Assembly (NCBI RefSeq): GCF_037081715.1
Contig: NZ_JAZDDH010000004.1
Coordinates: forward strand, 62,001-126,000
Direction: 5' to 3'
Length of the DNA stretch: 64,000 nucleotides
From: Halalkalicoccus sp. CG83
Lineage (GTDB): Archaea > Halobacteriota > Halobacteria > Halobacteriales > Halalkalicoccaceae
Of the stretch, positions 27,660-51,063 are shown piece by piece. The position numbers and the translations under genes are program-made. The notes beneath the pieces are model-generated. The model was not told the DNA's origin and made no database searches. It saw only the letters and a list, made by a program, of their open reading frames with translations. The first letter of the stretch is position 1; the number at the start of each line of letters is the position of its first letter.

Positions 27660-28097
27660 TTACTTATTTCCATCGTGCGTCACTACAACGACGGGACACT
27701 TTGAATTGAGGAGTACGGATTGGGTGACACTTCCGAAAATGGCTTTTCCCGCTGGCGAACGCTTTCGTGGTCCGAGAACGATGTATCGAACGTTGTTTTC
27801 GGTGGCATATTGCAGAATTTCGTCCTTCGGATTGCCCATCACGCCGACGGTTTCACCATCAATGTCGAGTGATGCCGCCGCCACCTCTGCGATCTCTTTG
27901 GCTGTCTCCTTCACCTCGTTGATATCGAGCACGTTGCCGGTTTGGTTGACGTTAGTTCGTTCGAGATCGACGAAGTCTGAACGACTGAGTACGTGGAGTA
28001 CATGGACTCGCTCGTCGAACGCCCTCGCTAAAGCGGCTGCTTCCTTGAGGACATTTTCAGCTTTCTCTGAATTGTCGACTGGTGCAAGGATTACCAT
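27660..28097 (-). CDS. Universal stress protein (UspA family)
   Basis: A 145-residue single-domain Usp. It begins VILAPVDNSEKAENVLKEA and carries the ATP-binding loop GPRKRSPAGKAIFGSVTQS (about residues 109-127), followed by VLLNSKCPVVVV. The G-x2-G-x9-G(S/T) pattern has a Pro-Ala variation but is recognisable. It is cytoplasmic and probably binds a nucleotide. Such genes often accompany transporters in haloarchaea; here the Tct genes are 1 kb away. Confidence 0.9.
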   Translation of the reverse strand: MVILAPVDNSEKAENVLKEAAALARAFDERVHVLHVLSRSDFVDLERTNVNQTGNVLDINEVKETAKEIAEVAAASLDIDGETVGVMGNPKDEILQYATENNVRYIVLGPRKRSPAGKAIFGSVTQSVLLNSKCPVVVVTHDGNK

Positions 28098-28225
28098 ATT
28101 CTCATTACTCGCGTTGCAGGTATTAATATTCCTCTTATAGAGCGGTTGACTAGTCGATTTGTGTTATCAAGGGTGCCGTCGAATCGAGTTAAGTCGAGTT
28201 CAAGCCAGCTGTGGCCAGACAATAC

Positions 28226-28768
28226 TCAGGTGCTGGGGTCCCAGCCGACGAATTTATCACCAGTCTCGATTTCGATGCCAAGAGCATCGATAAAGTTGCC
28301 GAGGGCAGCATAACTACCTGCCGTCACTACGATACCGACAATTGTTCGATCATCAAAGTGCTCCGAAATGGCCTTGTAAAGTGGCTCCTCGACTCGTCCC
28401 CGAGCGACGGCTCACGTGTACGCCATCAAGATCTCTTCTGGCATTGAAAACGGTATTTGACCGTCTCTTGCGCTCGCTCTGATCTCCGCCTTAGTAATGC
28501 CAACGTTCATCGCGATATTCACGTGTTCATGCCACTCATACGTCGACCGTATCTCCGAGGCAGCAGTCAGGATGACAATATCATCTATCTGACAGGACAA
28601 ATCTGCCCGAAGTGAGCTGAAGAACCGTCAAAGACCTCTCAATACGACTGGATTATTTCCGGTTCCTGCGTACACGTTGGCTGCCTTATCCGGTTGGAGA
28701 GATAAGACAAGAAACTCTCGATATTCTGAATCCAATTCATCTTCGGTTAGGTGTGCAACGCGTGCCAT
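28226..28768 (-). pseudogene. Carboxymuconolactone decarboxylase (CMD) family gene with two in-frame TGA codons
   Basis: One continuous minus-strand frame of about 180 codons matches a CMD/AhpD-type protein along its length: MARVAHLTEDELDSEYREF, GNNPVVLRGL, then STYEWHEHVNIAMNVGIT, and finally DDRTIVGIVVTAGSYAALGN. It is interrupted only by two TGA codons, after VVLRGL (28628-28630) and after ILMAYT (28409-28411). Both stand where the family often has Arg, so CGA to TGA transitions are the simplest explanation. No frameshift is seen. This is a recently broken gene, or less likely one read through. Confidence 0.8.
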
Positions 28769-29145
28769 CACTCCACAAGAGACGGTGAGAGGATGATTAT
28801 TTCCCATTAACAATTATCATTGATAATTATTTATATTTCATTCTATATTACAATAGATATATTTTATCTTAATCTCTCTATAAAGTCTCCAGCCTCAAAC
28901 TGGCTAATCGAACGCGTAGACTATGATCGTTTAAGGCCCGTAGTGTTACTGGACACAACGGGAATGTTTCTACTGAGAAACCTCATTGATCGAATGGTCC
29001 AAGAATCGTTCAGTGACGCCGTCCTGCAAGACTATCTTGGTGAGCAGAAAGCTACGACAAAACATGCACTGACCGAATTCTGTACAACGCAGATCGACTT
29101 ACTATGGCATAAACCTTATATATAATAGCTACATTGGTTGTTCCC
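28769..29145. other. Gap with promoter and possible remnant
   Basis: AT-rich. A plus-strand open frame up to 29125 (DYDRLRPVVLLDTTGMFLL is the best part) looks protein-like but overlaps the tctC promoter and is not recognised. Confidence 0.3.
29117..29126 (+). promoter_or_regulatory. TATA box of tctC-like gene
   Basis: TTATATATAA ends 20 bases before the ATG at 29146, the spacing expected for a leaderless or near-leaderless archaeal transcript. Confidence 0.65.
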
Positions 29146-30141
29146 ATGGTTGGTATTAACAGACGTAGAGCTCTTACCATGATCAGCGGAGCTGCATTTA
29201 CGGGATTAGCTGGTTGCGGTGGTCTTGGTGGTGGTGGCGAGGACTTTCCGACACGGGATATTCGAACCATCGTCCCATACGGACCTGGTGGTGGCGTCGA
29301 CGCGTACGCTCAAGGTTACACGCCAGCGGTATCGGACGAGCTTGGTGTGAATATTGAAATTGACCACATCGAAGGCGCGGCCGGACTTCGAGGCCTTGGT
29401 GAGTTAGCGGGAGCCGACCCGGATGGATACACCATTGGGCAGGCGTCTCCACCAGCGGAAGTCCTTCCAGCGCTGCTTGAGGATCCAGGGTTCGACCAAA
29501 GGGAACTCACCGGAATCGCTCGTGTCGGCTACAGTTCCCTCACAGGGATTGTCAATGCTGATCATGGTATCGAGTCGTACACCGATCTAGTCGATGCGTA
29601 CCAAAGTGGTGAGTTCTCACAGTGTGCCGGTCTTGGAGAGGGCGGACAACAGCACGCCGCCGCGCTGACCGCCCGCGATAAACACGGTCTCGATTTTGAT
29701 TCATACGTCGCCTACGGCGGGACCGGCCAGGTCGAGGAAGCCGTCGTGAGCAATGAGGTTCCCTTCGGTTTCGGGACTGACGCTGGATTCCTGTCTGCGG
29801 TGGAATCAGACTCTGCGTACCCAGTCGCGATTTTGAGTGCCGAACCGAGCGGGGTCTTCCCTGATTGGCCAACGGTGACTGACGAAGGGTTTGAAGACAT
29901 CAGCTTCATCGGTGTACTGCACCGAATGTGGATGGCGCCGCCCGATACTCCCGACGATATTCAACAAACCCTCCAGGATGCGTTCGAAACAGCGTACAAC
30001 AGCGATCATGTTCAGCAGTGGTCGGAGGACACCGGTAACGCCATAACCTTCGACGAGGGTGAAGAAGCCGAACAGATGATAACGACGATGTATGAAGAGA
30101 TTCCTGCAAACGTCGATATGGAAGAACTAGCCGGTAATTAG
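29146..30141 (+). CDS. tctC: Tripartite tricarboxylate transporter, substrate-binding lipoprotein (TctC/Bug family)
   Basis: A 331-residue extracytoplasmic solute receptor. INRRRALTMISG with LAGC (Cys24) is a Tat-type lipobox, so the protein is exported folded and lipid-anchored. The mature part has family features: RTIVPYGPGGGVDAYA, IEGAAGLRGLGEL, DPDGYTIG, and GGTGQVEEAV. It binds carboxylates such as citrate, aconitate or dicarboxylates and passes them to TctAB. The start at 29146 is supported by the TATA box. It is first in a three-gene operon with tctB (26-base gap) and tctA. Confidence 0.9.
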   Translation: MVGINRRRALTMISGAAFTGLAGCGGLGGGGEDFPTRDIRTIVPYGPGGGVDAYAQGYTPAVSDELGVNIEIDHIEGAAGLRGLGELAGADPDGYTIGQASPPAEVLPALLEDPGFDQRELTGIARVGYSSLTGIVNADHGIESYTDLVDAYQSGEFSQCAGLGEGGQQHAAALTARDKHGLDFDSYVAYGGTGQVEEAVVSNEVPFGFGTDAGFLSAVESDSAYPVAILSAEPSGVFPDWPTVTDEGFEDISFIGVLHRMWMAPPDTPDDIQQTLQDAFETAYNSDHVQQWSEDTGNAITFDEGEEAEQMITTMYEEIPANVDMEELAGN

Positions 30142-30167
30142 ACGTCTAACCCCCATACATCAATCAC

Positions 30168-30704
30168 ATGCTAGAAAAATACCAAAAAAAGGCTAATTCT
30201 GAGCAAATGCTACTGATATTAGTGACGGGAATAAGCGTGTATATGTTCGTTGAATCATTCACTTTTCATCCAGATGCCGCTAACTTTCCTCAAATAATGT
30301 CGAGTAGTGTTATAATTTTCGGCATATTATTGCTATTCAAGAACTATCTTCCGGAAGCTATTCAGAAATATTTGATGCAGGAACAGACAATCGACGTGGG
30401 GTCAGTCGGGGATGACGAGATCGAAGAAGATCTTGAAGAAACCGGTGAGAAACTCAAAGGAAGTGCGGAGGCCTTAGATCGGCCAATTCATCCCTCACTT
30501 TTTACCACTATTGTAACAATTTTGTATCTAGTTAGCTCGTACCTATTTGGCCTGTTCTGGATGACCCCCATCGTTGTCGTTGGATACCTCGTTTGGTTCA
30601 AGCAACCGTGGTGGAAGATCGGTGTTGTGACCGCAGTCTCGATCATCGCCGTGTACGGGTTTATTGAGCTCCTGAATATGAGATTCTTCAGTGGAGTGTT
30701 GTAA
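30168..30704 (+). CDS. tctB: Tripartite tricarboxylate transporter, small membrane subunit (TctB)
   Basis: A 178-residue protein with hydrophobic helices near residues 15-35, 40-58, 106-128 and 130-172, and an acidic loop between (DDEIEEDLEETGEKL). The order C-B-A and length match TctB. It forms the membrane complex with TctA. The stop is 8 bases before tctA. It is weakly conserved, so identity rests mostly on position. Confidence 0.85.
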   Translation: MLEKYQKKANSEQMLLILVTGISVYMFVESFTFHPDAANFPQIMSSSVIIFGILLLFKNYLPEAIQKYLMQEQTIDVGSVGDDEIEEDLEETGEKLKGSAEALDRPIHPSLFTTIVTILYLVSSYLFGLFWMTPIVVVGYLVWFKQPWWKIGVVTAVSIIAVYGFIELLNMRFFSGVL

Positions 30705-30712
30705 TAAAACCG

Positions 30713-32191
30713 ATGTCTCTTTCATCAGTAGGTCAGGGACTGCAACTCGTCCTTAGCTGGCCAACAATAGGTTTTGTCATCTTGGGCGTCTTGCTCGGCA
30801 TATTCATTGGATCGCTACCGGGGCTCGGACCCGATCTGGGAATGGCAGTTATGTTGCCGCTGACACTCCCACTCGAGGGTCTTGATGCGATTATCCTACT
30901 CGTGGGCATCTATAGCGGAGCACTGTATGGTGGAAGCATCTCGGCCATTCTAATTAACGTTCCCGGGACGGCAGCGTCCGCTGCAACGACGTTCGACGGG
31001 TATCCGTTGACACAGCAAGGAAAGGCGCTCGTCGCGCTGACGACGTCCGCAAGTGCGTCCGCGATTGGCGGGTTCTTCACCGTCCTCGCACTCTTTGCGC
31101 TGTCCCCGGTTTTGATTGGCGTCGTACTGGCGTTCGGAACTCCCGAGTACTTCCTCATGGCCGTTCTGGGTCTCGCGATGATCTCAGTCATCGCGAAAGG
31201 GTCAATATTGAAAGGGTTGTTTATGGGTGCCTTCGGGTTCCTGATCGCCACTATGGGTGTTGCACCGATGGTTTTTCAGCGACGCTACACCTTCGACACT
31301 ATTGCCCTATATGATGGGCTTGATTTCGTCGCTATACTCATTGGACTGTTCGCTATCTCCGAGATGTTCAAGCTGGCGAACCAGGAAGGGGGTATCTCGG
31401 GTGGACTTGAGTTACAGGGGAAAGTATCCGATGGCGTTCGGAATATTATCACCTACAAATTTCTCATGCTCAAATCTGCATTCATCGGAATGGGTGTCGG
31501 CTCAATTCCAGGAGCGGGTGCGACCGTAGCGAACTTCCTCTCGTACGCAGAGGTTGTTCGAAGTGTTCCCAATCCAGAGATCCCATTCGGAGAGGGAAAC
31601 ATCCGAGGACTCATTGCGTCCGAGGCATCGAATAACGGGACCGTCGGTGGGTCGTTGATACCAACCTTCTCGTTTGGTATTCCGGGAAGTGCATCGACTG
31701 CGGTTCTGCTCGGTGGACTATTGATGCACGGTCTGCAGCCTGGGCCACAGTTGTTCTCCGCACAGTTACACGTCACCTATAGCGTATTCTTCGCACTCCT
31801 ACTTGGAAACATTTTGATACTTATTATTGGACTGGGATTTGTCTCCTACGCTAGTCACCTAACGAGGATTGACACAGAACTGATTATTCCGATCGTCATC
31901 GTCCTTGCGATGGCTGGGAGTTTCGCGCTGCGAAGAAACTGGCTTGATCCCCTGACTATTGTTGTTCTGGGGATCGTCGGCTACTATATGTACAAGAACA
32001 ATTACTCCGTCATTGCATTCATTCTCGGGGTAATCCTCGGTCCGATCGCAGAGGAAAACTTCCACCGGAGTCTCGTGCTCTCGGAGGGGTCATACGCCAT
32101 CTTCGTCACGCGGCCACTTTCTCTTTTACTGGTGCTCGTGACGGTACTTGTGCTTATTGGGCCAGCTCTCAATGACCGAATCAAGGGCTGA
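30713..32191 (+). CDS. tctA: Tripartite tricarboxylate transporter, large permease subunit (TctA)
   Basis: A 492-residue membrane protein with about 11-12 helices. The two family glycine motifs are clear: GSLPGLGPDLGMAVMLPLT near residue 31 and VGSIPGAGATVANFLSYAE near 260; GGSISAILINVPGTAASAAT near 77 is also typical. It carries an organic acid across the membrane, probably with sodium or proton. Located next to CoA-ligating and lyase genes, it probably imports their substrate. Confidence 0.93.
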   Translation: MSLSSVGQGLQLVLSWPTIGFVILGVLLGIFIGSLPGLGPDLGMAVMLPLTLPLEGLDAIILLVGIYSGALYGGSISAILINVPGTAASAATTFDGYPLTQQGKALVALTTSASASAIGGFFTVLALFALSPVLIGVVLAFGTPEYFLMAVLGLAMISVIAKGSILKGLFMGAFGFLIATMGVAPMVFQRRYTFDTIALYDGLDFVAILIGLFAISEMFKLANQEGGISGGLELQGKVSDGVRNIITYKFLMLKSAFIGMGVGSIPGAGATVANFLSYAEVVRSVPNPEIPFGEGNIRGLIASEASNNGTVGGSLIPTFSFGIPGSASTAVLLGGLLMHGLQPGPQLFSAQLHVTYSVFFALLLGNILILIIGLGFVSYASHLTRIDTELIIPIVIVLAMAGSFALRRNWLDPLTIVVLGIVGYYMYKNNYSVIAFILGVILGPIAEENFHRSLVLSEGSYAIFVTRPLSLLLVLVTVLVLIGPALNDRIKG

Positions 32192-37496: not shown

Positions 37497-38126
37497 CAGG
37501 TGGAGCGAGGAGTTGAAATCATCTCTTTTTGATCGGAAGATTAGATATGAATATTATGTGGGAATGCGGTTTCTCACTATCGGAGAATATGCTAGACACA
37601 GAAAGAAAGCGTACGAAGTAGCAATCGAAAAATCCCTGTTTTAGCGAAGGAAACTGGCGAGCGAGCACAGTTTGTGATTGAGAACACGGTCGTGAAATCT
37701 ACGTCCAGACCAGTATAGGAGATTCGGCGGCAGTCATGACTACCGCCAGGTAGGGCAGACTCGCTACCTCCATTCCAGTGCAGCTAGGAAAACGATCCTA
37801 GCGTTTCAGCCGGATTGCAGTGTTGATCAAGTCGTTGAACGGTGTGATTTCCCTGCAGAACCGGGTGCTACGATTTCCGACCGTGCGGTCCTATATTCTG
37901 AACTCTAGCCGGTTTGCTCCTCCGATGTCGCATTCAACGACGAAGAGTAAATCAAGGGTCTACGGGCCATTGGTGTTCCGGTTCGGAGACCGGACAACAC
38001 GATAATCGGTGCAGTCAGTGTCTCAGGCCAGCCCGCAGATTCAAGGGCTCGCGATGTAGGGACGAATTACCTGATATCGTGTTAGGCGTCATGAATAAAT
38101 CCGAACTCAAAATAAGTTATTCTTAA
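37497..38126 (+). pseudogene. IclR-family regulator, decayed
   Basis: Piecing the frames together gives an IclR effector domain: YYVGMRFLTIGEYARHRK, LAKETGERAQFVIEN, then in other frames SAAGKTILAF, FPAEPGATISDRAVLY, AFNDEE (stop TAA) IKGLRAIGVPVRRPDN, and a final RDELPDIVLGVMNKSELKI. At least three frame changes and stop codons interrupt it, and the DNA-binding end is lost. IclR proteins commonly control catabolic genes; this one probably governed the adjacent hydrolase or the CoA genes. Confidence 0.75.
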
Positions 38127-38203: not shown

Positions 38204-40174
38204 ATGCAAGACCTCGGCATAGATCTCGATCCAGAGCTGTCGATACCCGTTGGAGGTGAGACCGTCGCAGCGACCCGTTACAAACCGACAGCATACGATG
38301 AACCCTTGCCGCTCATTCTCATTGCCACGCCATACCGGAAAGACGATTGGATTACCTTCGGTGGATGGGACCCCTCGATTCGGTACTTTTGCCATCAAGG
38401 ATACGAAGTTGTGGTCGCAGATCTCCTCGGAACCGGGGCATCCACTGGCGACTCTCCACCATTCCATCGATCCGAAGGTGACCAGATTGCCACCGTCATC
38501 GAGTGGCTAGCTGACTGTGAGTGGACGACAGGTGATATCGGAATGTTCGGACTATCTTACGGCGCCTGGACACAGTACGTTACTGCAGCTGTCAACCCCG
38601 AGCCCCTGAAGGCAATTGTCCCCGTGGCCGTATCTCCCTCTGTATATCAGAGTTCCTCGCCTGGCGGGGTGTTCAATCCAATGAAGCGAGCAACGTGGTC
38701 GGTGCTGATGCAGACGTTACGGGTACTACCGCCGAGCCGCCGCGATGGTACGGGTCAGTGGTTGGAGGTCTGGAATGAACGACTCAAATCGATTGAGACT
38801 ACGACCCCCTGGTTGTTTCGCTTTCTCGGACATGAGGCAAAAGACGACTTCTGGGTGTCCCGCGAGGTCAACCCTGACGAGATCACAGTTCCCACGTTCG
38901 CCGCTTGCGGATACCGCGACGACCACACTGCGCCAATGGTCGAATTCTTCGACGAGATCGACGCTCCGAAGCGATTGCTGCTCGGTCCTTGGCGGCACCG
39001 CATGCCGGAGCAGGGTCGTGAGTGTGCAGTCGACTTTCGCCGTCAAGCAACAGCGTGGTTCGATCATTTCCTTAAAGGGGATCAAAACGATGTCTGCTCC
39101 GAGCCAACCGTGGTCTATTGGACCGAACAAGATGGCGGGTGGACGATGGGGGCAGGAGCATGGCGTGGAATTGACCAATGGCCGACGACCCAGGAATCAT
39201 CGTTGTCGTACGCTGTTACGCCGGACGACCTTCGAAACGCTGACACCTTCACCGAGGGTCGGTTCGAGAAGACCTACGAAATTGACCATACCGTTGGTGT
39301 CGAATCTCTTGATCGAGTTGGACGAGTAACAAATCCAGGAGTGCCCACCAACGGGGACGATGCCAGGTCGCTCGTCGTCGAAACAGACCGCATCGAAACT
39401 CCACTCGAGTGGACCGGGACCGGGTATGCTACCCTCGCCGTTCGGCCGACAATCACACCGCTGATTCTCGCCGTCCGTATAGCCGACGTCGACTACGGCG
39501 GAGCGGCTCGACTGGTTTCGGCCGGCAGTCTTCATGCAAGCCAGAGGACCGATACCGGCGAACCTCTCCAGCCTGGGATCGTATCTCCAATACAGATCCC
39601 ACTGAAACCGAAATCGCATGTCTTCGAGCGAGGACATAAGATCTGTATGGCCATCAGTGGTGCGTACTTCCCTCGAGCACTGCCGCTACGCACCAGCGGT
39701 CAATTCGATATCGTCTCGACACCGGAACTACCTACGGAGATCGTCTTTCCCGGCCAAATACACTCTGAAGCCGTTCAGTTTGACAATTGCATCACTACTG
39801 CGCCGCCAGACACTACCGTCCCGACGAGATCTCCGTTCAAAACTACAATCGACTCACAGTGGGCCGTTGACCGGAATCATTCGACGAATTCGGCGACACT
39901 GCGAATGGTAACGGCATCCATTATCGATCTCCCACACGGTAGCGAATTACACACTCAACAGCGTGTCGAGGCAGGTGTTGCGAGCGATGACCCGAAGACG
40001 GCTGCTGTTAAGATAGACGTCGCAGCAGAACTCAAATACGACACTGAGACGTGGAGCGTTTCAACGACATCGCGAGTCACCAGAGGTCTCGCAACTCTTA
40101 CAACAACGGTTACAGTTGACGGCGAGCCGACGTTCAAACGGACATGGCGCCGTCTCGATCCTATGCAGAAATAG
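38204..40174 (+). CDS. CocE/NonD-type (peptidase S15-like) hydrolase
   Basis: A 656-residue alpha/beta hydrolase. DLLGTGASTGDSPPF (about residues 82-96) and GMFGLSYGAWTQ, with nucleophile Ser118, are the S15/CocE hallmarks; GPWRHRMPE supplies the His. The second half includes the jelly-roll lectin-like domain (LILAVRIADVDYGG, then RGHKICMAIS), followed by a further C-terminal beta part of about 120 residues that is longer than usual. It has no signal peptide, so it acts in the cytoplasm on an ester, amide or acyl compound. The decayed IclR gene is directly upstream. Confidence 0.88.
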   Translation: MQDLGIDLDPELSIPVGGETVAATRYKPTAYDEPLPLILIATPYRKDDWITFGGWDPSIRYFCHQGYEVVVADLLGTGASTGDSPPFHRSEGDQIATVIEWLADCEWTTGDIGMFGLSYGAWTQYVTAAVNPEPLKAIVPVAVSPSVYQSSSPGGVFNPMKRATWSVLMQTLRVLPPSRRDGTGQWLEVWNERLKSIETTTPWLFRFLGHEAKDDFWVSREVNPDEITVPTFAACGYRDDHTAPMVEFFDEIDAPKRLLLGPWRHRMPEQGRECAVDFRRQATAWFDHFLKGDQNDVCSEPTVVYWTEQDGGWTMGAGAWRGIDQWPTTQESSLSYAVTPDDLRNADTFTEGRFEKTYEIDHTVGVESLDRVGRVTNPGVPTNGDDARSLVVETDRIETPLEWTGTGYATLAVRPTITPLILAVRIADVDYGGAARLVSAGSLHASQRTDTGEPLQPGIVSPIQIPLKPKSHVFERGHKICMAISGAYFPRALPLRTSGQFDIVSTPELPTEIVFPGQIHSEAVQFDNCITTAPPDTTVPTRSPFKTTIDSQWAVDRNHSTNSATLRMVTASIIDLPHGSELHTQQRVEAGVASDDPKTAAVKIDVAAELKYDTETWSVSTTSRVTRGLATLTTTVTVDGEPTFKRTWRRLDPMQK

Positions 40175-40659
40175 TGGTTTCAGTCCTAGGGACGGAACGG
40201 CAGTCTCGACACGCGACACCCTACTCGTGTTAAAGTTAGTATGATGCTGCCAGACAATGAAGGTTGGAACCACAAGTCTGCCGTTGTCGGCATGGCTGTC
40301 CGTCTGTGATACTGGAAAGTCCACCGTGTTCCCTTAAAACATCAACATTCCAACTTCCAGGGTTGAATTTTTGTAGCTAGTTATGAATAACGATATACCG
40401 TCGGTCGACACTTAACCTCTTAAAATAATGTCTTGTATTTAGTAAATATCATCCAGACAAGAGAACTGAAGACCAACTTCGATCCGCTGTTGGGTAGCCG
40501 TTCTTCCTCAATGTCCCCTAAATCCATTCAGTCGATACTGGTGTTCTGGTGATTGATTTCGGCCATAGGTATTCAGAACATCGGTCAACTCACTCTCGAC
40601 GTAGCATCACTAGAGATCTCTATGCATACATTTATTGCTCCGAACAGCAACGGCGGCGT

Positions 40660-41460
40660 ATGGACTATAATATCGCAGGCCAACGAGTGATTGTAACCGC
40701 CGCGAGCAAAGGACTTGGACGGGCGGTTGCCCAGGAGTTCGTTGACCAGGGTGCGACCGTTGTTATCAATTCGCGAAGCGAGGAAAACCTTGAAGCGGCC
40801 AGAGAACACATTGAAGCGAACGTCGACGGTGATGGATCGGTACTCATCGTCCCTGGTGACCTCTCGGATCCGGAGGTGGTAATTGAGGTGTTCGACGCTG
40901 CTATCGATAAGCTCGGAGGACTCGATACGCTTGTAACCAACCATGGCGGGACAACCCGTCGAAGTTTCGAGAAGATGACCACTGAACTACTTGATGAGAC
41001 GTACGAATCGGTTATCAAATCGACGTTTCTGATGGTAAAAAAGGCGCTTCCGGCGTTGAAAGAGAGTGACGGAGGTAGCATCACTCACATCGTCTCGACA
41101 TCTGCCCGAGAACCGCCTCGTAATCATATCCCGTCGAACATCCTTCGATTGGGCATCTACGGTCTCTCTAAGAGCGTCTCGAATGAGTACGGAGAGTACG
41201 GTGTCCGGTCCAATTGTGTTGGCCCGCGCATGGTGATGACCGACCGGATCGCCAGCATCTTTGAGGATGACGCCAAGCGACAGGGAATCTCAGTCGAAGA
41301 AGCGAAATCCCAACACGTCGACTCACTGCCGCTCAGCCGAGTAGGCGATCCACAGGAGTTTGCCGAAGCGGTCGCATTCCTGTCGTCGGACGCCGCCAGC
41401 TTCATCACTGGTACGTCGCTCGCTATTGATGGTGGCTGGACGAACGGCGCGATTCTCTGA
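40660..41460 (+). CDS. Short-chain dehydrogenase/reductase
   Basis: A 266-residue SDR with all key residues: TAASKGLGRAVAQEF (cofactor), NHGG, catalytic Ser in HIVSTSAREPP and the YGLSK (YxxxK) motif. The C-terminus FITGTSLAIDGGWTNG is standard. The start at 40660 is supported by an AT-rich ACATTTATTG element about 25-30 bases upstream. It probably oxidises or reduces a hydroxyacyl or sugar-like substrate with NAD(P). It precedes the enoyl-CoA hydratase family gene on the same strand. Confidence 0.9.
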   Translation: MDYNIAGQRVIVTAASKGLGRAVAQEFVDQGATVVINSRSEENLEAAREHIEANVDGDGSVLIVPGDLSDPEVVIEVFDAAIDKLGGLDTLVTNHGGTTRRSFEKMTTELLDETYESVIKSTFLMVKKALPALKESDGGSITHIVSTSAREPPRNHIPSNILRLGIYGLSKSVSNEYGEYGVRSNCVGPRMVMTDRIASIFEDDAKRQGISVEEAKSQHVDSLPLSRVGDPQEFAEAVAFLSSDAASFITGTSLAIDGGWTNGAIL

Positions 41461-41781
41461 CAGCGCTTTAGGTATTGGCTGAGCCCGTTCCACGTTAGTT
41501 GTGGCCGTCTATAAGCGAACAGTATCTCCCATTCGTTGAGGGCGACATACGATACTAAGGGTAAGAGACGACCTATTGAAGTAGTGAAATTCCGGATGAC
41601 TGCCTCGAAAGACCGAATAGCCGTCGCAGGAGAGAAGCTCGTGCTCATACGGGCAATATCGAAGTACAGTCTCTGAGTATGAGCCTGTATTGGGTTCGTT
41701 TTCCCACTTGAGAACGAGGCTAATCTCCCAACTGCCGGTAAGAAAGAACTAATAAGTTACTTCGTGAACTGGTATCACACA
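41461..41781. other. Gap before the first enoyl-CoA hydratase
   Basis: 320 bases with no gene. An AT-rich TAATAAGTTA element lies about 25-30 bases before the ATG at 41782. Confidence 0.35.
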
Positions 41782-42549
41782 ATGAGTGGCTCTATCGAAA
41801 CACACATAGAGGGAGGCATCTGCACGATGACCCTCAAAAATGAGGGAAAACGAAACGCGATTAGCTATCCGATGATGGACACAGCGATCGACGAAATCAA
41901 TGAACTAGAAGCAATGGACGATGATTACGTACTCGTCATTACGGGTGCAGGAGATAAAGCGTTTAGTGCTGGGTTTGACCTCTCGCAGGATCGCGATTCC
42001 GAGAAGGAAAAATGGTGGAAAGATCTTAATGAGGCCATAGAATCATACGAATATCCAACTATTGCGAGAATAAATGGGGATACTTACGGTGGGGCAATTG
42101 AATTAGTATGCGCCTGTGACATCCGTATCGGGGTGAAAAACGCCCGGTTTGGCATCACTCCTGCAAAGATCGGTATCGTCTACAGCCCCGAAGCCATCAC
42201 ACGCGTCATCCGACTTGTTGGCACAGCGAAGGCCAAAGAGCTGTTATTCACTGGAAACGCAATTAAGGGGGAACACGCATATGATATTGGATTGTTAAAT
42301 CACGTTGTCAGATCCGAAGACCTCGATGAAAAAGCGTACGATCTGGCCGGTACGATTGCGAGCAATGCTCCAATATCGTTGAAGAGCATGAAACAAATCA
42401 TTTCCGCGATCAATGACACGAGCTCACTCTCGCGAACAGAGCGAGAGTGGGGTCGATCGATGCGAACTAAAGCCTTTGAAAGCAGAGACCACCAGGAAGG
42501 CGTTGAAGCATTCTCAGAGAATCGTCAACCCGAGTTCGAAGGACACTGA
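41782..42549 (+). CDS. Crotonase-superfamily protein lacking one catalytic Glu
   Basis: A 255-residue enoyl-CoA hydratase/isomerase fold. The first oxyanion-hole part (KAFSAGFDLSQD) and GGAIELVCACDIRI, with Glu107, are present. The second catalytic Glu, normally in a GxPExxLG motif, is replaced: residues 125-131 read ITPAKIG. It therefore may act as an isomerase, decarboxylase or hydrolase rather than a hydratase. The start at 41782 is preferred over the GTG at 41764. A perfect hairpin terminator follows 6 bases after the stop. Confidence 0.87.
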   Translation: MSGSIETHIEGGICTMTLKNEGKRNAISYPMMDTAIDEINELEAMDDDYVLVITGAGDKAFSAGFDLSQDRDSEKEKWWKDLNEAIESYEYPTIARINGDTYGGAIELVCACDIRIGVKNARFGITPAKIGIVYSPEAITRVIRLVGTAKAKELLFTGNAIKGEHAYDIGLLNHVVRSEDLDEKAYDLAGTIASNAPISLKSMKQIISAINDTSSLSRTEREWGRSMRTKAFESRDHQEGVEAFSENRQPEFEGH

Positions 42550-42554
42550 TCCAT

Positions 42555-42579
42555 CGTCACCGGCGGACCGCCGGTGACG
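42555..42579. terminator. Perfect 12-bp inverted repeat
   Basis: CGTCACCGGCGG (42555-42566), one base, CCGCCGGTGACG (42568-42579), only 6 bases past a stop codon and between two convergent genes. It is probably a two-way transcription stop. Confidence 0.6.
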
Positions 42580-42674
42580 TGCTGTCTGCCGTCTCTCTCA
42601 GGTGAGCAATAGTACCCCGACCTGTCCTCGGGATCAGTCTATCTTTGACATGTCCTTTTTGGATTCGCCTTCTG

Positions 42675-43865
42675 TTACTCGACGATGTCCTCGTTGCGTA
42701 ATTTCTTGATTTCTTCGGACTTGAGACCGAGACGTGTCTCAAGTATGTCTTCTGTGTGTTCGCCAAGTGTCGGTGACCCATGATCGAGCCGTGGTTCGCT
42801 ATCCGAGAAATGAAGTGGGTGCCCATGCATTAACACGTCTCCAGCATGTTCGTGCTGGTACTCGATAACATAGTCGAGTGCCCGTGCCTGTGGGTGGTCG
42901 ACGACATCACTAACCTCGTTGAGGGGCCCGTTCGGAAAGTCGTATTTATCAAAGATTTCTTTCCATTCTTCAGTGGTCTTCTCTTTTAAGACTGGATGTA
43001 TCTCAGCAGCAATCCTCATGTAGTTTTTTTGCCGTTTACTTGGGGTGTCATACTCAAGTAACGACTCTTTGCCGATGATTTCGGTAGCGAAGGTTTTCCA
43101 ACCCTCCTCGCCGCCGGCAGGCCAGAAGGCAATATAGCCGTCTTTGGTCTCAGCTACCTCGTATGGGACGGTAGTCTGGTGTCGTCGGCCGTATGGTGAC
43201 GGGTTCTCACCTGTCATTCCGTAAATCGTGAGATACTCTTCAAGAAACGAGACGATGGTCCCAAAGAGATTCGTTGAGAAACGCTGGCCCTCTCCTGTTC
43301 GTTCCCGTGCGTATAAGGCGGTCAGAATCCCGATGACTGCGTAGAGGCCCGCGCCGATATCGCCGATTGCCTGTCCAACCTTCACCGGTGGCCCCCCCTC
43401 CGGGCCGGTCACACTCATGATGCCTGCTTCCGCCTGCATCACCAGATCGACTCCCTTCTTATCAGAGAGGGGTCCTTTCTCTCCATACCCTTTTATCGAG
43501 GCGTACACTAGCTCCGGATTCTCAGCAGAGAGCGCGTCATACCCTAATCCAAGCTTTTCCATTGATCCCGGGCTAAAGTTCTCGACAACGACATCAGCGT
43601 CACGAGCGAGTTCTCTGGCAATGTCTCGCCCTCGCTCGGATTTCAAATCTATTGCAATACTCTCTTTGTTGCGATTTCGGGCAATATGTTCTGCGCTGAA
43701 CCCTTCCTGTTTCGGATCCGTTGTTCGTTCAAGTGCACCAATTCCTGGTCGTTCGACCTTGATGACTTCCGCACCGAGTTCGCCAAGTATCTGCGTCGAC
43801 CACGGACCAGCGCGAATCTGGCTGAAGTCAACGACTGTAATATCGTCTAGTGGAGCGGCACTCAT
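42675..43865 (-). CDS. Family III CoA-transferase (CaiB/BaiF), copy 1
   Basis: A 396-residue protein. It begins with DDITVVDFSQIRAGPWSTQ and has LGAEVIKVERPG and the nucleotide-contact region NRNKESIAIDL. The catalytic Asp is present in GVDLVMQAEAGIMSVTG. Such enzymes move CoA between acyl groups, for example to dicarboxylates, without ATP. The start at 43865 agrees with family length. It is divergent from the acyl-CoA dehydrogenase, so the two may share a control region. Confidence 0.9.
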   Translation of the reverse strand: MSAAPLDDITVVDFSQIRAGPWSTQILGELGAEVIKVERPGIGALERTTDPKQEGFSAEHIARNRNKESIAIDLKSERGRDIARELARDADVVVENFSPGSMEKLGLGYDALSAENPELVYASIKGYGEKGPLSDKKGVDLVMQAEAGIMSVTGPEGGPPVKVGQAIGDIGAGLYAVIGILTALYARERTGEGQRFSTNLFGTIVSFLEEYLTIYGMTGENPSPYGRRHQTTVPYEVAETKDGYIAFWPAGGEEGWKTFATEIIGKESLLEYDTPSKRQKNYMRIAAEIHPVLKEKTTEEWKEIFDKYDFPNGPLNEVSDVVDHPQARALDYVIEYQHEHAGDVLMHGHPLHFSDSEPRLDHGSPTLGEHTEDILETRLGLKSEEIKKLRNEDIVE

Positions 43866-44022
43866 ACAAACTACCGTAGCTATGCACCGACTTGATTGTT
43901 GTGTTAGACACTCCCATGGTATCAAAAGGAATCCAACAGGGCAAACACTGTCCCCCAGGCGGATCGGCATGTACTTGTTTTCAAGACCCTACCTATTTGT
44001 CCTCAGATGCTGTAAGTGCTTT

Positions 44023-45159
44023 ATGGGTGTCAGAAGTCTAAACGAAGAACAGGAGAAAATCGTAGACGTTGCAGCGCAGATCTGCGACGAGCAATTTGCC
44101 GAGACGGCATTCACCTGGGGCGGCAAAACTCCATGGGAGAACCTGGAGACTCTCTCAGAACGTGGATTCTATTGTCTAGCTATTCCCGAAAAATACGGCG
44201 GTGGGGGGATGTCTATCTTCGAAGATACGCTTCTGATAGAGGAGGTTGCATCGGTCTGTCCAGATACTGGGTGGCAAGTACTCGTTACCACGATTGCTCC
44301 GCACAGCGTCGTCCAGTTCGGTAGCGAGGAGGCAAAAGAACGGTATCTCCCGCCAATCTGCAGTGGTGAAAGACAGATGTCGATTGGTATTAGCGAACCA
44401 GAAGCGGGAAGCGATGCAATGAATATGAAGACAACCCTCGAAAACGACGGCGATGAATACCTCTTGACAGGAGAAAAAACCTGGGTGGGCGGCGTCGGTG
44501 ATTCGAACGCTGCGGTTATCTGGTCAAAGATGCCGGACGGGAACATCGGTTCAGTCATTATGGATTTTGATGCCAACGGCGTTGATCTCATTACAGAATA
44601 CGAAAACATGGCTGGATACACCCAGACGCACTTTAGCATGGATCGTGTTCGTATACCTGAGGAGAACATCCTCATCACGAATCAGACAGAATGGAAAGAT
44701 CAACTTCAGCGGCTTAACTGGGAGCGCGTCACCATTGCGATGTGGACTAATGCCCTCGCTCGTTGTGCTATCGAACACGCACTGGAGTACGCACAGACTC
44801 GCGAACAATTTGGGCAAAAAATCGGGGAATTTCAGGGAATGCGGTGGAAGTTTGCTGACATGGTTAAAGAGTATGAGGTCGGACGGAGCCTTATCTATCA
44901 AATTGCAGCGACCGCCGCTGAGAACGACGATGTTCCCGACCGACTCAAATCGAGCATTGCGAAGCTATACGCGGCTGAAACGACCGAGCGAATCGTCAGT
45001 GAATCACTCCAGGTCTTCGGGGCTAAGGGCTACCAGAAGGGACATCCACTCGAATATCTATATCGATATAACCGGTCACGCCGTATCGGTCACGGCACAG
45101 ACGAAATAATGAAGAACGGGATCGCGGACCAGCTGTTCAAGCACGGCCTCCCGAAGTAG
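44023..45159 (+). CDS. Acyl-CoA dehydrogenase
   Basis: A 378-residue flavoprotein. The start at 44023 (MGVRSLNEEQEKIVDVAAQ) fits the family N-terminus; the upstream open frame is antisense to the CoA-transferase. FAD and substrate motifs are visible: MSIGISEPEAGSDAMNMKT, EKTWVGG, YAQTREQFGQKIGEFQGMRW, and a final RRIGHGTDEIMKN. It removes two hydrogens from an acyl-CoA to form the enoyl-CoA for the nearby hydratase. Electrons would pass to electron-transfer flavoprotein, not encoded here. Confidence 0.92.
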   Translation: MGVRSLNEEQEKIVDVAAQICDEQFAETAFTWGGKTPWENLETLSERGFYCLAIPEKYGGGGMSIFEDTLLIEEVASVCPDTGWQVLVTTIAPHSVVQFGSEEAKERYLPPICSGERQMSIGISEPEAGSDAMNMKTTLENDGDEYLLTGEKTWVGGVGDSNAAVIWSKMPDGNIGSVIMDFDANGVDLITEYENMAGYTQTHFSMDRVRIPEENILITNQTEWKDQLQRLNWERVTIAMWTNALARCAIEHALEYAQTREQFGQKIGEFQGMRWKFADMVKEYEVGRSLIYQIAATAAENDDVPDRLKSSIAKLYAAETTERIVSESLQVFGAKGYQKGHPLEYLYRYNRSRRIGHGTDEIMKNGIADQLFKHGLPK

Positions 45160-45197
45160 CTGATTGACATACCGCTGTTTCGAATAGACTTTTAGTA

Positions 45198-45971
45198 TTA
45201 TTTACCCTTGAATTCTGGTTCGCGATCCTCCAGGAAGGCTTGGGCACCTTCCTTCTGATCTTGGGTCCCGAAGAGGATGCCTCCGGCAACGCGGTCAATG
45301 CCGAGTCCAGCCTCCATATTCAGCCCACGGTGCATGCTCTCCTTAGCGAGCGAGAGTGCGAGTGGGGGATGTTTTGCAAGCTTTTTCGCGAATGCGTACA
45401 CCTCCTCTTCGAACTCCTCTGGCTCATAGATCCTATTCGCCAGACCAATCCGTTCAGCTTCTTCGGCATCAATGATGTCGCCAGTGTACACTAGTTCCTT
45501 CGCTTTTCCGAGGCCGACGATTCTAATGAGTCGCTGACCGCCGCCGCCGGTAGGGTATAACCCGACCCGGGATTCAGTTAATCCAAACTTTGCGTCCGTC
45601 GAGGCGAGGCGGATATCACAGGCGGTTGCAATCTCGGTCCCGCCGCCGAGTGCATATCCGTCAACTGCGGCGATAGTCGGCTTCGATATTCGCTCGACAA
45701 ACGTGTACAGACCTTCTGCATACTTTTGGACGTATTTGAGCCCTTCCACCATATCAAGCTGGCTGTAGAACTCAAGATCCCCACCAGCACTGAACGCCGA
45801 GCCAGCACCGCGCAGCACGACAGCGCGAACATCCTCACGCTCTTCTGCCTCCTTGAATGCTTCCCGTATCGCATCACGGGTCGGTTCATCCATCGCGTTT
45901 CGTTTCTCCGGTCGGTTAATCGTAATCGTCGCCACCGCATCTTCTACATCGAACAAGACTAGTTCGCTCAT
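45198..45971 (-). CDS. Enoyl-CoA hydratase
   Basis: A 257-residue crotonase with both catalytic glutamates: GGGTEIATACDIRLA (first Glu) and FGLTESRVGLYPTGGGGQRL (second Glu). It begins MSELVLFDVEDAVATITINR. It would add water to an enoyl-CoA, consistent with the acyl-CoA dehydrogenase convergent with it 38 bases away. The start at 45971 is preferred over the next upstream Met. Confidence 0.92.
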   Translation of the reverse strand: MSELVLFDVEDAVATITINRPEKRNAMDEPTRDAIREAFKEAEEREDVRAVVLRGAGSAFSAGGDLEFYSQLDMVEGLKYVQKYAEGLYTFVERISKPTIAAVDGYALGGGTEIATACDIRLASTDAKFGLTESRVGLYPTGGGGQRLIRIVGLGKAKELVYTGDIIDAEEAERIGLANRIYEPEEFEEEVYAFAKKLAKHPPLALSLAKESMHRGLNMEAGLGIDRVAGGILFGTQDQKEGAQAFLEDREPEFKGK

Positions 45972-46576
45972 GCATCTTCTCATACTCTGTAAGGGGTCTT
46001 AATCTCGAGGCTTGATGACAATTGACGATGCGAATCCAGTTCCATCTTCTCTTGTGGGAGCTATCGGTGACGGTTCTTAATTTCTCCATGTTGACTGATT
46101 CTCAGTCCAGTAAGACTAATAACAGTTCAGGGATCAGTTATCTAACGGGAGAAACTCATTGTTTGAGCAGCATCCGGCCGCACTTCATCAGATGTGCTTA
46201 TTGATACGACCTGGTAGGTTCCCGAGAAATCTGTTGATTCGAATGCGCCCGGGTTGCGTGGCAGTACGACAATGGGTAAGCCCAACTCGTCTTTGAAGAT
46301 AGGTTTGACGAGTCTTGACTTGTGTACAATAATCAGTTCGTCGAGTAGTTCAAGAATCGTGATAGAGACTGGAATGGGTTATTGAGGACGATGACAGATT
46401 CGTAGACTCTGTCAGCAGTTTTAGCAATGATGAGTTCTTCGCGGAAGGGTTACTCATACGTTCATTAATAGTAACTACATTGATATTAACTTTCCCGATG
46501 CTGATTGAAGTCGTAGCGAATGAGTTCGTGATTCTGACTTCTATATCCTCGTCAAAGGGATGATCTGAGTTGTATC
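45972..46576. other. Gap holding a coding remnant
   Basis: Between the hydratase start and the second CoA-transferase end. The right part has decayed minus-strand coding sequence (see 46200-46560); the left part has none I can recognise. Confidence 0.35.
46200..46560 (-). pseudogene. Decayed coding sequence of unknown family
   Basis: Minus-strand frames give continuous protein-like pieces: HPFDEDIEVRITNSFATTS, then EELIIAKTADRVYESVIVLN, ILELLDELIIVHKSRLVKPI, and LPIVVLPRNPGAFESTDFSG. They are separated by frame changes. The order looks like one gene running away from the CoA-transferase, but the family is not recognised. Confidence 0.35.
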
Positions 46577-47788
46577 TTATATCACCCCCTCATCCCGTAA
46601 CCGATCATACTCCTCCGTTGAGAGGTTGAGTTCGTTAAGGAACACGTCCTTATTGTGATGCCCCTGAGGCATGCCGGCGTGAACGGCCTCCCCGGGCGTT
46701 TTCGAGAGTTTCGGCACTGGACTAGGAGTTTGGAGTGTGCCAAACGTCTCATCGTCCATCTCAACGATGTTGTCCCGTTCATTAAACTGTTCATCCTCGT
46801 AAATATCGGCGATGTCGTACACCGGGCCAACAATGGCGTCGTGTGCACGCATTGTTTCGAGTACCTCATCGGTCGAGCGCTCTCTGGTCCACGCCTCGAT
46901 GATTTCGTCGAGTAGGTCCGCGTTCTCAACTCGTCGGTCGTTCGTTCGGAACCGTTCGTCCTCTATCAAATCCGTCCGATCAATTGCCTGGACAACGTTC
47001 TCGTAAATCGCTTGTGAAGATGCTGACAGTGTTATCCACCCGTCAGTTGTCTCGTAGATTCCCCTCGGTGCGGCACTGGGGTGATGATTTCCGGTTCGCT
47101 CTGGGACCCTCTCAAGTCGGTCATAGGTCTCAACGTCGGCAGCAAATAACCGGAACAGCGGTTCGTAGAGACTGATGTCGACTACTTGACCGTCTCCGTC
47201 AGTATGATCGGGCCTGAGGTGCTGTTCGTACAGAGCAAACATCGCGCCGTGAACGGCGAATAGTCCTGCGGTTAGGTCTGCGAGGCTAATGGGTGGCAGG
47301 AGTGGTTCTCGATCTGGAAATCCGTTGACGTGTGCCCAGCCAGAGAATCCTTCGGCGATCGTGCCAAATCCAGGGTGATCCGACAGAGGGCCGGTCTGGC
47401 CGAAACCGGAGACACGAACGAGGATGACTGAGGCATTCACTTCCTGTAGCTGCTCCGGCCCGAGTCCCCACCGTTCCATCGTCCCTGGGCGGAAGTTCTC
47501 AAAGACTAGGTCTGCATCTTCGACGAGCTTCAACGCTATCTTTTTTCCATCTTCAGTGCTCAGGTCCAGCGTAATGCATCGCTTGTTTCGGCCGATCGAT
47601 TTCCACCATAACGACTCTTCTTCGTCGAATGGTGGCCACGATCGGAGTGGATCAGGATATTTCGGATGCTCTATTGTCACGACGTCTGCGCCGAAGTCCG
47701 CAAGCTGCATCGTCGCAAAACCACCAGCAATCATCCCAGAAAAATCAATCACACGAAGGCCCTCTAACGGCTGATGTGCTGACTGCAT
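46577..47788 (-). CDS. Family III CoA-transferase, copy 2, with the catalytic Asp replaced
   Basis: A 403-residue CaiB/BaiF protein: LRVIDFSGMIAGGFATMQLA at the start, then FGADVVTIEHP and RNKRCITLDLS. Where copy 1 and copy 3 have Asp (GVDLV, GMDVV), this one reads HPGFGTIAEGFSG with Gly142. Known members of this subgroup with FGxIAE exist, so this may be a different reaction (for example racemase- or ligase-like handling of CoA esters) rather than a defect. It lies upstream of the CitE-like gene on the same strand. Confidence 0.87.
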   Translation of the reverse strand: MQSAHQPLEGLRVIDFSGMIAGGFATMQLADFGADVVTIEHPKYPDPLRSWPPFDEEESLWWKSIGRNKRCITLDLSTEDGKKIALKLVEDADLVFENFRPGTMERWGLGPEQLQEVNASVILVRVSGFGQTGPLSDHPGFGTIAEGFSGWAHVNGFPDREPLLPPISLADLTAGLFAVHGAMFALYEQHLRPDHTDGDGQVVDISLYEPLFRLFAADVETYDRLERVPERTGNHHPSAAPRGIYETTDGWITLSASSQAIYENVVQAIDRTDLIEDERFRTNDRRVENADLLDEIIEAWTRERSTDEVLETMRAHDAIVGPVYDIADIYEDEQFNERDNIVEMDDETFGTLQTPSPVPKLSKTPGEAVHAGMPQGHHNKDVFLNELNLSTEEYDRLRDEGVI

Positions 47789-47899
47789 AGGTGACTATGC
47801 CTTGGGAGGCTACATAAAAATTCGTGAGGTACCATCTCTGGGATTGTTCTAATAGGTCTCGTCTGTCGGGGGCACGCTTGCAGCGACAGATCATACTCA

Positions 47900-48739
47900 C
47901 TACTCAACCGATTCCCCCGCTCGGTGCAATATCTCCTCTGCCCGGGAGAGGATTGGCGCATCGATCATCTGACCATTCAACTCGAAGACGCCCTTGCCAC
48001 CGGCTTCACTCCTCGCCGAGAGGACTTCTCTCGCCCACGTGATGTCCGTGTCCGACGGAGTGAAGACATCATTGAGCACTGATAGTTGCACAGGATGAAT
48101 AGCGACCTTTCCGTCGAATCCGAAATTGAGTGCTTGTCTCGCATCGGTCCGAAGGCCCTCCAAATTCTCGATATCTGTATACACCGTGTCAATAGTAGCG
48201 ATGGCAGCGGCGGCTCCCGCGACGGCGACTCGGCTTCGAGCGTAGGAGAGATAATTCGTGTCTTCGAGCTTGATAATTCCCATGTCCGCGGTGAAATCCT
48301 CCGCACCAAAGATGATGCCTGTCAGTTGTGGGTGGGTGGCTATCTCTTCGACAGCGGTCAACCCCGCTGCCGTCTCTATGATCGCGATGATTTCCGAGTT
48401 GAGGCCCATCTCGTCAAGTTCATTCGCGGCGTCCTGTATATCTCCAATCGAATCCACCATCGGTACAACGATATTCTCGGGAGCAGTTTCGGCGGTTGCG
48501 AGTGAACTGATGTCCTCTTGACCACCCACTTCGAGCGGGTTTATGCGGACCCAGACCCGCGGTCGTGCATTACTATTCTCGGTTAATACCGTCGAAACTG
48601 CCTTTCTTGCCTCGTCCTTAGCGGTTAGGGCGACTGCGTCTTCCAGATCGAGGATTAAGACGTCGGCGTCACTCTCAAGTGATTTCCGCATCATCGTGAT
48701 CTCGTCACCGGGCGTGAATAGCACTGATCGAGTAGGCAT
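47900..48739 (-). CDS. CitE-like HpcH/HpaI lyase (citryl/malyl/citramalyl-CoA lyase type)
   Basis: A 279-residue TIM-barrel. RSVLFTPGDEITMMRK, then ILDLEDAVALTAKDEAR supplies the metal-binding Glu/Asp; RPRVWVRINP and IIFGAEDFTADMG are also family motifs. Such enzymes split hydroxyacyl-CoAs such as malyl-, beta-methylmalyl- or citramalyl-CoA. The start at 48739 is chosen for the family N-terminus. With the CoA-transferase downstream and hydratases nearby, it would cleave the hydrated CoA ester, giving acetyl-CoA plus an oxoacid. Confidence 0.88.
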   Translation of the reverse strand: MPTRSVLFTPGDEITMMRKSLESDADVLILDLEDAVALTAKDEARKAVSTVLTENSNARPRVWVRINPLEVGGQEDISSLATAETAPENIVVPMVDSIGDIQDAANELDEMGLNSEIIAIIETAAGLTAVEEIATHPQLTGIIFGAEDFTADMGIIKLEDTNYLSYARSRVAVAGAAAAIATIDTVYTDIENLEGLRTDARQALNFGFDGKVAIHPVQLSVLNDVFTPSDTDITWAREVLSARSEAGGKGVFELNGQMIDAPILSRAEEILHRAGESVE

Positions 48740-48795
48740 AGTGCCACAGGGACACACCAAAGCAAAAAACTTCGTATGGATCATATACCAGTTGG

Positions 48796-49089
48796 CTAAA
48801 GCCGCTGAACTAGGATGGTCATCGCTTCGGACAACACGGCGAGATCAAAAAACGGCTCGTTGAAGAAGCCCTGGTCGGCCAGCGCACCGACCATGACTGG
48901 GCTAGCCGCACCGATACCAAATGAGATCGTTCGCAGCAGTCCGAACCCAGCCCCCTGTGTGACATTAGGGAGAATGACGAGCAGATATGACTGTGTGATC
49001 GTCGCGAATCCGAGCGTGGCACTTGAAAGGACGATAATAGCTACCACGGACCAGGGTACATCGGTCAGCGGTAGACAGACCATCGACAT
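48796..49089 (-). pseudogene. MFS transporter C-terminal fragment
   Basis: 97 residues with LGFATITQSYLLVILPN and FGLLRTISFGIGAASPVMVG, closely matching the last 95 residues of the intact transporter at 55082 (LGFAPVTQSHLILALPEN, LGILRTVSFTTGAASPVFVG). Everything before is absent. It is a 5'-deleted paralogue. Confidence 0.8.
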
Positions 49090-49300
49090 GGTTAAGTCTC
49101 CTATAATGACCGTCAGTGATTTTCGAATACCGAACTAATCATATACGCCGCCCGATAGCGGCTGTACCACATCAATTACTCTAATCAGGACTTTTGAACA
49201 CCAATTGATCTTAAACGCCCAAATACCAGCTTCAAATCGGGCTATCTACTCTCCGCACTCGACTAAGAAGTGCTAGTCTGCGTGTCCAACCCCTTCCGTG

Positions 49301-50515
49301 CTACTGACACTCCTTCCGTTGTCCGAGCGCACCGCTCTCCCAGAGCTCGTCGAGTTCAGAGCGAGTGTACCCATACTGCCTGAGTATCTTTTCAGTATGT
49401 TCGCCTACTCGTGGAGGCGCGCGTTTGTGTATTGGACGTATGGATTCAGTAGAGATAGGGGTGAGCAGTGACTTGAACTCCGTATTACCGTCGCTGGTCT
49501 GTGACTTCGCTATGAGACCTGTCGCTTCCAAGTGGGGGTCGTCGACTAAGCTAGATGGATTGTTTACAGGCGCTGCTGGAATCCCTGTATCAATGAGTTG
49601 TAGTACCAATTCATCTCGGTCCCACCTGCGTACCTCGGAGGCAATCGTCTTCGACAGTTCTTCTTTGTGTTCGAGCCGCAATGCTGCGGTCTCATAGTTA
49701 GGATTCGCCAGCAGATCTTCGCGACCGAGTATTGTACAGAGATCAACCCACTGGCCTTCGCTCACAATACCAATGAACGCCCATCGGTCGCATTCGAATT
49801 GGTAGGCATCGTAAACCGCCTGTGAAGGATGTGACGCACCGAGGGGTGGGTGGTCCGCTCCCACGAACTGGGTATACGCAATCCAGTAATTCATCCAGTG
49901 TGAGAGTGACTCAAAGATCCCTGCCGTAATCTTCTGTCCCTCGCCTGTGGCTTTCCGATGACGCAACGCCAGCAGAATACCGACGATCCCATACAGTGCA
50001 CAACTGAAGTCGCCAATAGAGGTTCCTGCCCGTAGCGGTTTCTCTCCTTCCTGACCCGTCATCTGCATGAATCCAGACATTGCCTCTCCGACTACGTCCA
50101 TTCCCGCTCTATCTCCGTATGGGCCGTCATAGAAGCCCTTAATCGACAGATAGATGAGTCCTGGATTGACGGCCGAGAGCGACGCGTACCCCACATTGAG
50201 ATGTTCGGCTGCACCAGGACGGAGGTTCTCAATGACGATGTCCGCGTCTTCAACCAGTTCTGTGTAGATTTCTTGTCCACGGTCGGCTTGCAGATTAATA
50301 GTAATCGATCGCTTGTTCCGGTTGAGTGACTGGAACATCGCGTTGCCAACATTTCCTGCGTGTCGAATCCGATCTCCGTCGCCCGGACGTTCAACCTTGA
50401 TGACCTCGGCACCGAGGTCAGCCAAGACAGCTGTAGCCATTGGACCGGAAACGATCTGTCCGAGTTCAATGACGGTGATATCAGAGAGTGGTTGTCGCTC
50501 ACCTTGTGCTGACAT
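49301..50515 (-). CDS. Family III CoA-transferase, copy 3
   Basis: A 404-residue protein: LSDITVIELGQIVSGPMATA, LGAEVIKVERPGDGDRIRHA, and NRNKRSITINLQ. The catalytic Asp is present in AGMDVVGEAMSGFMQMTG. The domain order is normal. The start at 50515 is chosen over the upstream Met codons to fit family length. It ends near the truncated MFS copy and begins some 550 bases before the nitrile hydratase operon. Confidence 0.9.
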   Translation of the reverse strand: MSAQGERQPLSDITVIELGQIVSGPMATAVLADLGAEVIKVERPGDGDRIRHAGNVGNAMFQSLNRNKRSITINLQADRGQEIYTELVEDADIVIENLRPGAAEHLNVGYASLSAVNPGLIYLSIKGFYDGPYGDRAGMDVVGEAMSGFMQMTGQEGEKPLRAGTSIGDFSCALYGIVGILLALRHRKATGEGQKITAGIFESLSHWMNYWIAYTQFVGADHPPLGASHPSQAVYDAYQFECDRWAFIGIVSEGQWVDLCTILGREDLLANPNYETAALRLEHKEELSKTIASEVRRWDRDELVLQLIDTGIPAAPVNNPSSLVDDPHLEATGLIAKSQTSDGNTEFKSLLTPISTESIRPIHKRAPPRVGEHTEKILRQYGYTRSELDELWESGALGQRKECQ

Positions 50516-50723
50516 ACTATCATTCCTCATCCAGGTCACATAAATCTACGGTCATATAGAATAAACGACAGCGGAGCTATGGCTCTAAGTCTTCGTGATA
50601 TGGTAAAATTTGGCTTTGTTGAAGCTCCATTGTTTATTATTAATTGGTCTGAAATATATTGAGTAGATCTGCAAACCTAACGCTGTTACTTCTATCAGTC
50701 CTCAGTAATTTTGAGTGGATTCA

Positions 50724-50732
50724 TGCTGAATA
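50724..50732 (+). repeat. TGCTGAATA end-like motif, copy 5
   Basis: Exact motif followed by GAAGGCGCG, close to the extended form at 21866. It lies near the change of base composition before the nitrile hydratase operon. Confidence 0.5.
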
Positions 50733-51034
50733 GAAGGCGCGTATTGGTCACGAAGCCACGGAGCAAGACCCAGACTCTTGGACAGAATATTTCGGGATGT
50801 CACCTATCGCCGCATCAATGGCTTCGACTCCTTCCGCTTCACCTACATTGCCCTTTCACTCGAATACCGATCGGGATGGTCAGGACCGAGCGCCGCCCGC
50901 AATGTAGGCCGGGAAGCGAGTCCGCTAGTTGTCCGGAGCTTTTACTCGACGGGATCGACGCGGGGCGGCCACTGGCCTGAAATCCGTCTCGACGGGTCGT
51001 CTGAAGATGTATTCTTTCCCCGTCGACGACAGAC

Positions 51035-51042
51035 TTTTTATT
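51035..51042 (+). promoter_or_regulatory. TATA-like box of nitrile hydratase operon
   Basis: TTTTTATT ends 22 bases before the ATG at 51064, the spacing of a leaderless archaeal promoter. Confidence 0.5.
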
Positions 51043-51063
51043 CGGAACCTTATACTTCAACCG

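Follow-up and report, generated by a model that had tools for sequence, protein, structure and literature searches.

Archaeal genes inactivated by point nonsense mutations ordinarily carry few stops in a frame that is otherwise alignable, and sit on an accelerated branch. The intact genes closest to the one described here form a haloarchaeal subfamily of carboxymuconolactone decarboxylases (CMD; L032–L039, L003 and L071–L077, including those of Halomarina halobia, Natronococcus pandeyae and Natrinema ejinorense), with which it has in common the start motif, alignment over the full length, a core of the YEW[HQ]QH type and the [FV]GW end. In a review of recoding in archaea (PMC8211752), the demonstrated cases of archaeal stop read-through are selenocysteine and pyrrolysine. 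Within a window of 64,000 nucleotides from Halalkalicoccus sp. CG83 (the whole stretch of DNA analysed, lying on a 127 kb contig of the 3.64 Mb genome), a CMD-family frame is interrupted by two TGA codons (Table 1). Comparison with homologues makes it very probable that the locus is a fairly recently inactivated CMD/AhpD-like gene, an ordinary pseudogene, and set against the ordinary archaeal cases of point nonsense it shows nothing beyond them. The subfamily members differ from it in being intact, in having two extra residues, in keeping a [ST]DRQRE motif and in carrying Arg at both TGA sites, with the exception of one (L074) that has Cys at the second.

Table 1. Features at the CMD locus, in window coordinates.
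Feature	Position	Strand	Basis
CMD-family (PF02627-like) pseudogene, two internal TGA	28226..28768	-	frame, homology, Pfam, alignment
First internal TGA, codon 47	28628..28630	-	Arg in 9/9 closest homologues
Second internal TGA, codon 119	28412..28414	-	Arg in 9/9 closest homologues
Damaged segment, codons 47–63	28580..28630	-	2 residues missing, 11/12 invariant columns lost
Near-palindrome	28806..28834		14-nt arms, 86% complementary, 5' of pseudogene start

The frame runs over 180 codons from a MARVAH N-terminus, with the start ATG at 28768–28766 and the terminal TGA at 28228–28226 of the minus strand, a strand left unstated in the preliminary description. Its internal stops number exactly two, as had been claimed, both TGA and none of any other type, and a search of the whole genome recovered the same locus with the same two TGAs inside. 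When the frame is read through, residues 1–179 align with homologues, the highest identity being 53% and the best E value 1.0e-56. Since this alignment spans the stretches around both internal TGAs, the stops do lie inside matching sequence, as the preliminary description had said, and the frame is more than a product of chance. Full-length homology to intact members, at the same E value, places the gene in the CMD family; with the stops set to X, its score against the Pfam CMD model (PF02627) is 19.2 bits, under the 23-bit gathering cut-off, and three intact relatives score 42.2–48.5 bits. Third-position GC of the frame is 0.51, similar to that of neighbouring genes, which counts against a pseudogene.

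Homologues were drawn from a first search of 98 genomes including its own, 31 of which gave a match at E ≤ 0.001, and from a second search of 392 genomes of the order, 46 of which gave a match at E ≤ 1e-30. Of the 47 loci L002–L048, 46 were aligned, the other having no usable tblastn match. The closest subfamily comprises nine loci (L032–L039 and L003), all intact and 50–54% identical to this gene. Both TGA columns are occupied by Arg in all nine, encoded by CGN or AGG, so that a C-to-T change from CGA to TGA explains each stop, as had been proposed; homologues without Arg at both positions, named beforehand as the finding that would speak against this origin, were looked for and did not occur in the closest subfamily. 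With four members from named genomes added, the first site is Arg in 13 of 13 and the second in 12 of 13, the remaining one being Cys. This Cys is encoded by TGC, one C-to-T step from CGC, in Haloferacaceae archaeon XH8 (L074 8001–8537). Across the wider family (46 aligned homologues, distant ones included) Arg is found at the first site in 30 and at the second in 17; the Arg prediction holds for the subfamily and not across the whole CMD family. Among the matches listed in the 392-genome search, internal stops occur in this gene only. In the 98-genome search one other match, L021, shows a TGA, which lies at the extreme end of the match and is the terminal stop.

Damage to the gene extends beyond its two stops. 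Across eight of the subfamily sequences (a near-identical pair being represented once) 69 columns are invariant, and this gene has lost 21 of them; when each subfamily member is itself held out and compared with the rest, it differs at 2–7 of 71–76. The losses cluster in codons 47–63, where 11 of 12 invariant columns are gone, against 10 of 57 elsewhere; over the same segment no loss is seen in seven of the eight members, L032 being the exception with 2 of 14. Here two residues are absent relative to all nine subfamily members, Arg stands in place of a conserved Trp, and SCQIDD in place of the [ST]DRQRE motif. As some distant homologues (L017, L020, L025 and L030) are intact without both residues, the two-residue deletion alone need not be fatal; taken with the clustered loss of invariant residues, it nevertheless means that the lesions of this gene are not limited to the two stops. 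Judged from the alignment, the damaged segment is a third lesion that the preliminary description missed. The gene had been called otherwise unbroken, which stands for the reading frame but not for the protein, in which the two-codon deletion and the loss of invariant residues follow the first TGA. Counting against a pseudogene, only 4 of 27 columns conserved family-wide are lost (the intact but distant L028 loses 7 and L020 loses 4), and YEWHEH and other core residues are retained. The two TGAs, the two missing codons and the lost invariant residues are, all the same, disabling lesions not found in intact homologues, as expected of a pseudogene.

Paired compensating frameshifts within codons 47–63 would explain the damaged segment, a possibility that our controls do not establish. 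The alternative frame in the segment reads LSDR, where intact members have L[ST]DR, and a scan in four-residue windows singles out this gene, its score being reached by 0 of 46 homologues; scans in five- and six-residue windows do not, the score being reached by 9 and 24 of the 46, respectively. In a frameshift-aware alignment of the whole gene the alternative frame is not preferred at penalties of −8 or stronger, and when all 47 sequences were run as a control at a penalty of −5, 18 of 46 homologues gained more than this gene. The observed gain was also reached in 231–249 of 300 codon shuffles, a control that is flawed in that shuffling ruins the in-frame score.

In the maximum-likelihood tree this gene has a terminal branch of 0.78, whereas none of the other 13 tips of its subfamily clade exceeds 0.29; several nodes within that clade are weakly supported. 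It contains 28 rows, a part of the 46 homologues, with L073, L075 and L076 omitted as copies of the L035, L036 and L037 records. Of the 112 columns that vary among subfamily members, 77 have in this gene a residue shared with one or more of them. Divergence from the eight members is 0.33–0.38, 0.22–0.28 and 0.55–0.69 at first, second and third codon positions, respectively, showing that purifying selection acted through most of the gene's history. The ratio of divergence at positions 1–2 to that at position 3 (0.44–0.57, compared with 0.57–0.80 for an intact paralogue measured against the same genes) counts against a pseudogene, as does the presence of only two stops in 180 codons with no net frameshift. 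Together, the two stops, a frame that is mostly alignable and the signature of purifying selection fit a fairly recent death. The earlier suggestion that recent death is likely is therefore supported, most of the frame being alignable, with the deletion and the clustered losses now added to it. In the account we propose, C-to-T changes at CGA codons would have created both TGAs, translation would now end after 46 residues, yielding no enzyme, and a dispensable product would have let constraint relax.

The intact paralogue (L002, C1:1709976–1710509) lies on the largest contig of the same genome and is 46% identical; its presence counts in favour of a pseudogene. It is likewise a PF02627 member, but falls into another subfamily, one that occurs throughout the genus. 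No near-identical copy of the interrupted gene was detected in a first scan of genome contigs, nor in a plasmid collection, where the matches listed fell only in other genes of the window and covered at most 4% of the 24-kb query; the best plasmid matches to this surrounding 24 kb are from Halalkalicoccus, with a few percent covered. In a DNA search of six other genomes of the genus the CMD gene appeared only as a 112-base piece, in G002. Titles and abstract openings retrieved for haloarchaeal UGA readthrough, for Halalkalicoccus pseudogenes and for CMD together with nitrile hydratase do not mention this gene.

These lesions bear on other readings of the locus. That the TGAs were made by sequencing or assembly error in an intact gene seems very improbable, as two independent Arg-codon substitutions, a missing codon pair, a cluster of missense changes and the long branch would each need to be put down to error, a pattern not expected from simple base errors. 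Harder still to credit is a shorter piece, such as codons 48–118 with YEWHEH, being made as a functional small protein: an open stretch of 71 codons is indeed left between the stops, but it starts in the very segment that has lost 11 of its 12 invariant residues, and intact homologues are single-frame proteins of ∼180 residues.

A second disrupted gene lies 9 kb from the CMD pseudogene. On the plus strand at 37744–38037 an IclR-type regulator survives as a remnant (IclR_C, E 2.2e-13); TAG and TAA interrupt the match itself, and a TGA and a TAG precede it closely. Being broken by mixed stop types, this remnant indicates that the area has at least one other dead gene.

Read-through of the TGAs, by a suppressor tRNA, selenocysteine insertion or leaky termination, would give a full-length protein, and is about as unlikely as the small protein. 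It is prompted by the exclusive use of TGA in a frame that goes on beyond both breaks, and by the '(seleno)protein' in the names of two NCBIfam entries that intact relatives match weakly. The stops, however, stand at Arg columns rather than at a site of the Cys/Sec type, the damaged segment would remain even if the TGAs were decoded, the nearby IclR remnant is broken by TAG and TAA besides TGA, and the usual machinery was not found in the genome. A search of the genome for tRNA-Sec gave 0 matches over the cut-off and 14 below it; all 14 control genomes also give matches, and the eight sub-cut-off matches that were fetched are ordinary, canonical tRNAs. For SelD nothing exceeded the cut-off, the best score being 77 against 125 bits, and of the features of a selenoprotein or UGA-recoded gene (tRNA-Sec, SelD and UGA at a Cys/Sec position) none was found. 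ARAGORN called tRNAs at 43 of 44 tRNA places, none with a UCA anticodon (the exceptions being L135, with no call, and L112, with one extra, unreadable call). Internal stops occur in 0 of 46 ABC-domain matches of the genome, and TGA terminates 18 of 41 window ORFs picked by length, the CMD gene among them. UGA read-through in the CMD gene is thus poorly supported, and its variant in which an unknown suppressor or leaky termination decodes UGA at the two Arg positions, giving a conditional full-length protein, is the least likely reading of all.

A two-TGA frame, which in a haloarchaeon might have hinted at recoding, here behaves as a normal decaying gene, closing that lead, and the CMD locus should be annotated as a pseudogene. 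It also illustrates that frames broken by TGA only may mask additional missense and deletion damage.

On one side of the CMD pseudogene is a gene for Usp, on the other a TctCBA transporter set in divergent orientation. This divergent unit (window 27660–32191) is also present in five further species of the genus (L121–L125), and no CMD gene was matched between Usp and TctCBA in those five; as their proteins are only 26–56% identical to the window's, orthology of the sets is not proven. The near-palindrome lies 38 bases upstream of the pseudogene start, and its 17-base core has no other occurrence in the genome at up to two mismatches; it may be an old operator. Intact subfamily members have no fixed neighbours, with nitrile hydratase genes nearby in two of nine loci. 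At L050 and L051 an intact CMD member lies within ∼3 kb of nitrile hydratase genes, the interval in L051 being occupied by a creatininase-like gene and another CMD-like gene. Nitrile hydratase genes are also present in the window, 22 kb from the CMD pseudogene, where a catabolic cluster (38204–52391) contains three CoA-transferase III genes, two enoyl-CoA hydratases, an acyl-CoA dehydrogenase, an HpcH-type aldolase and nitrile hydratase.
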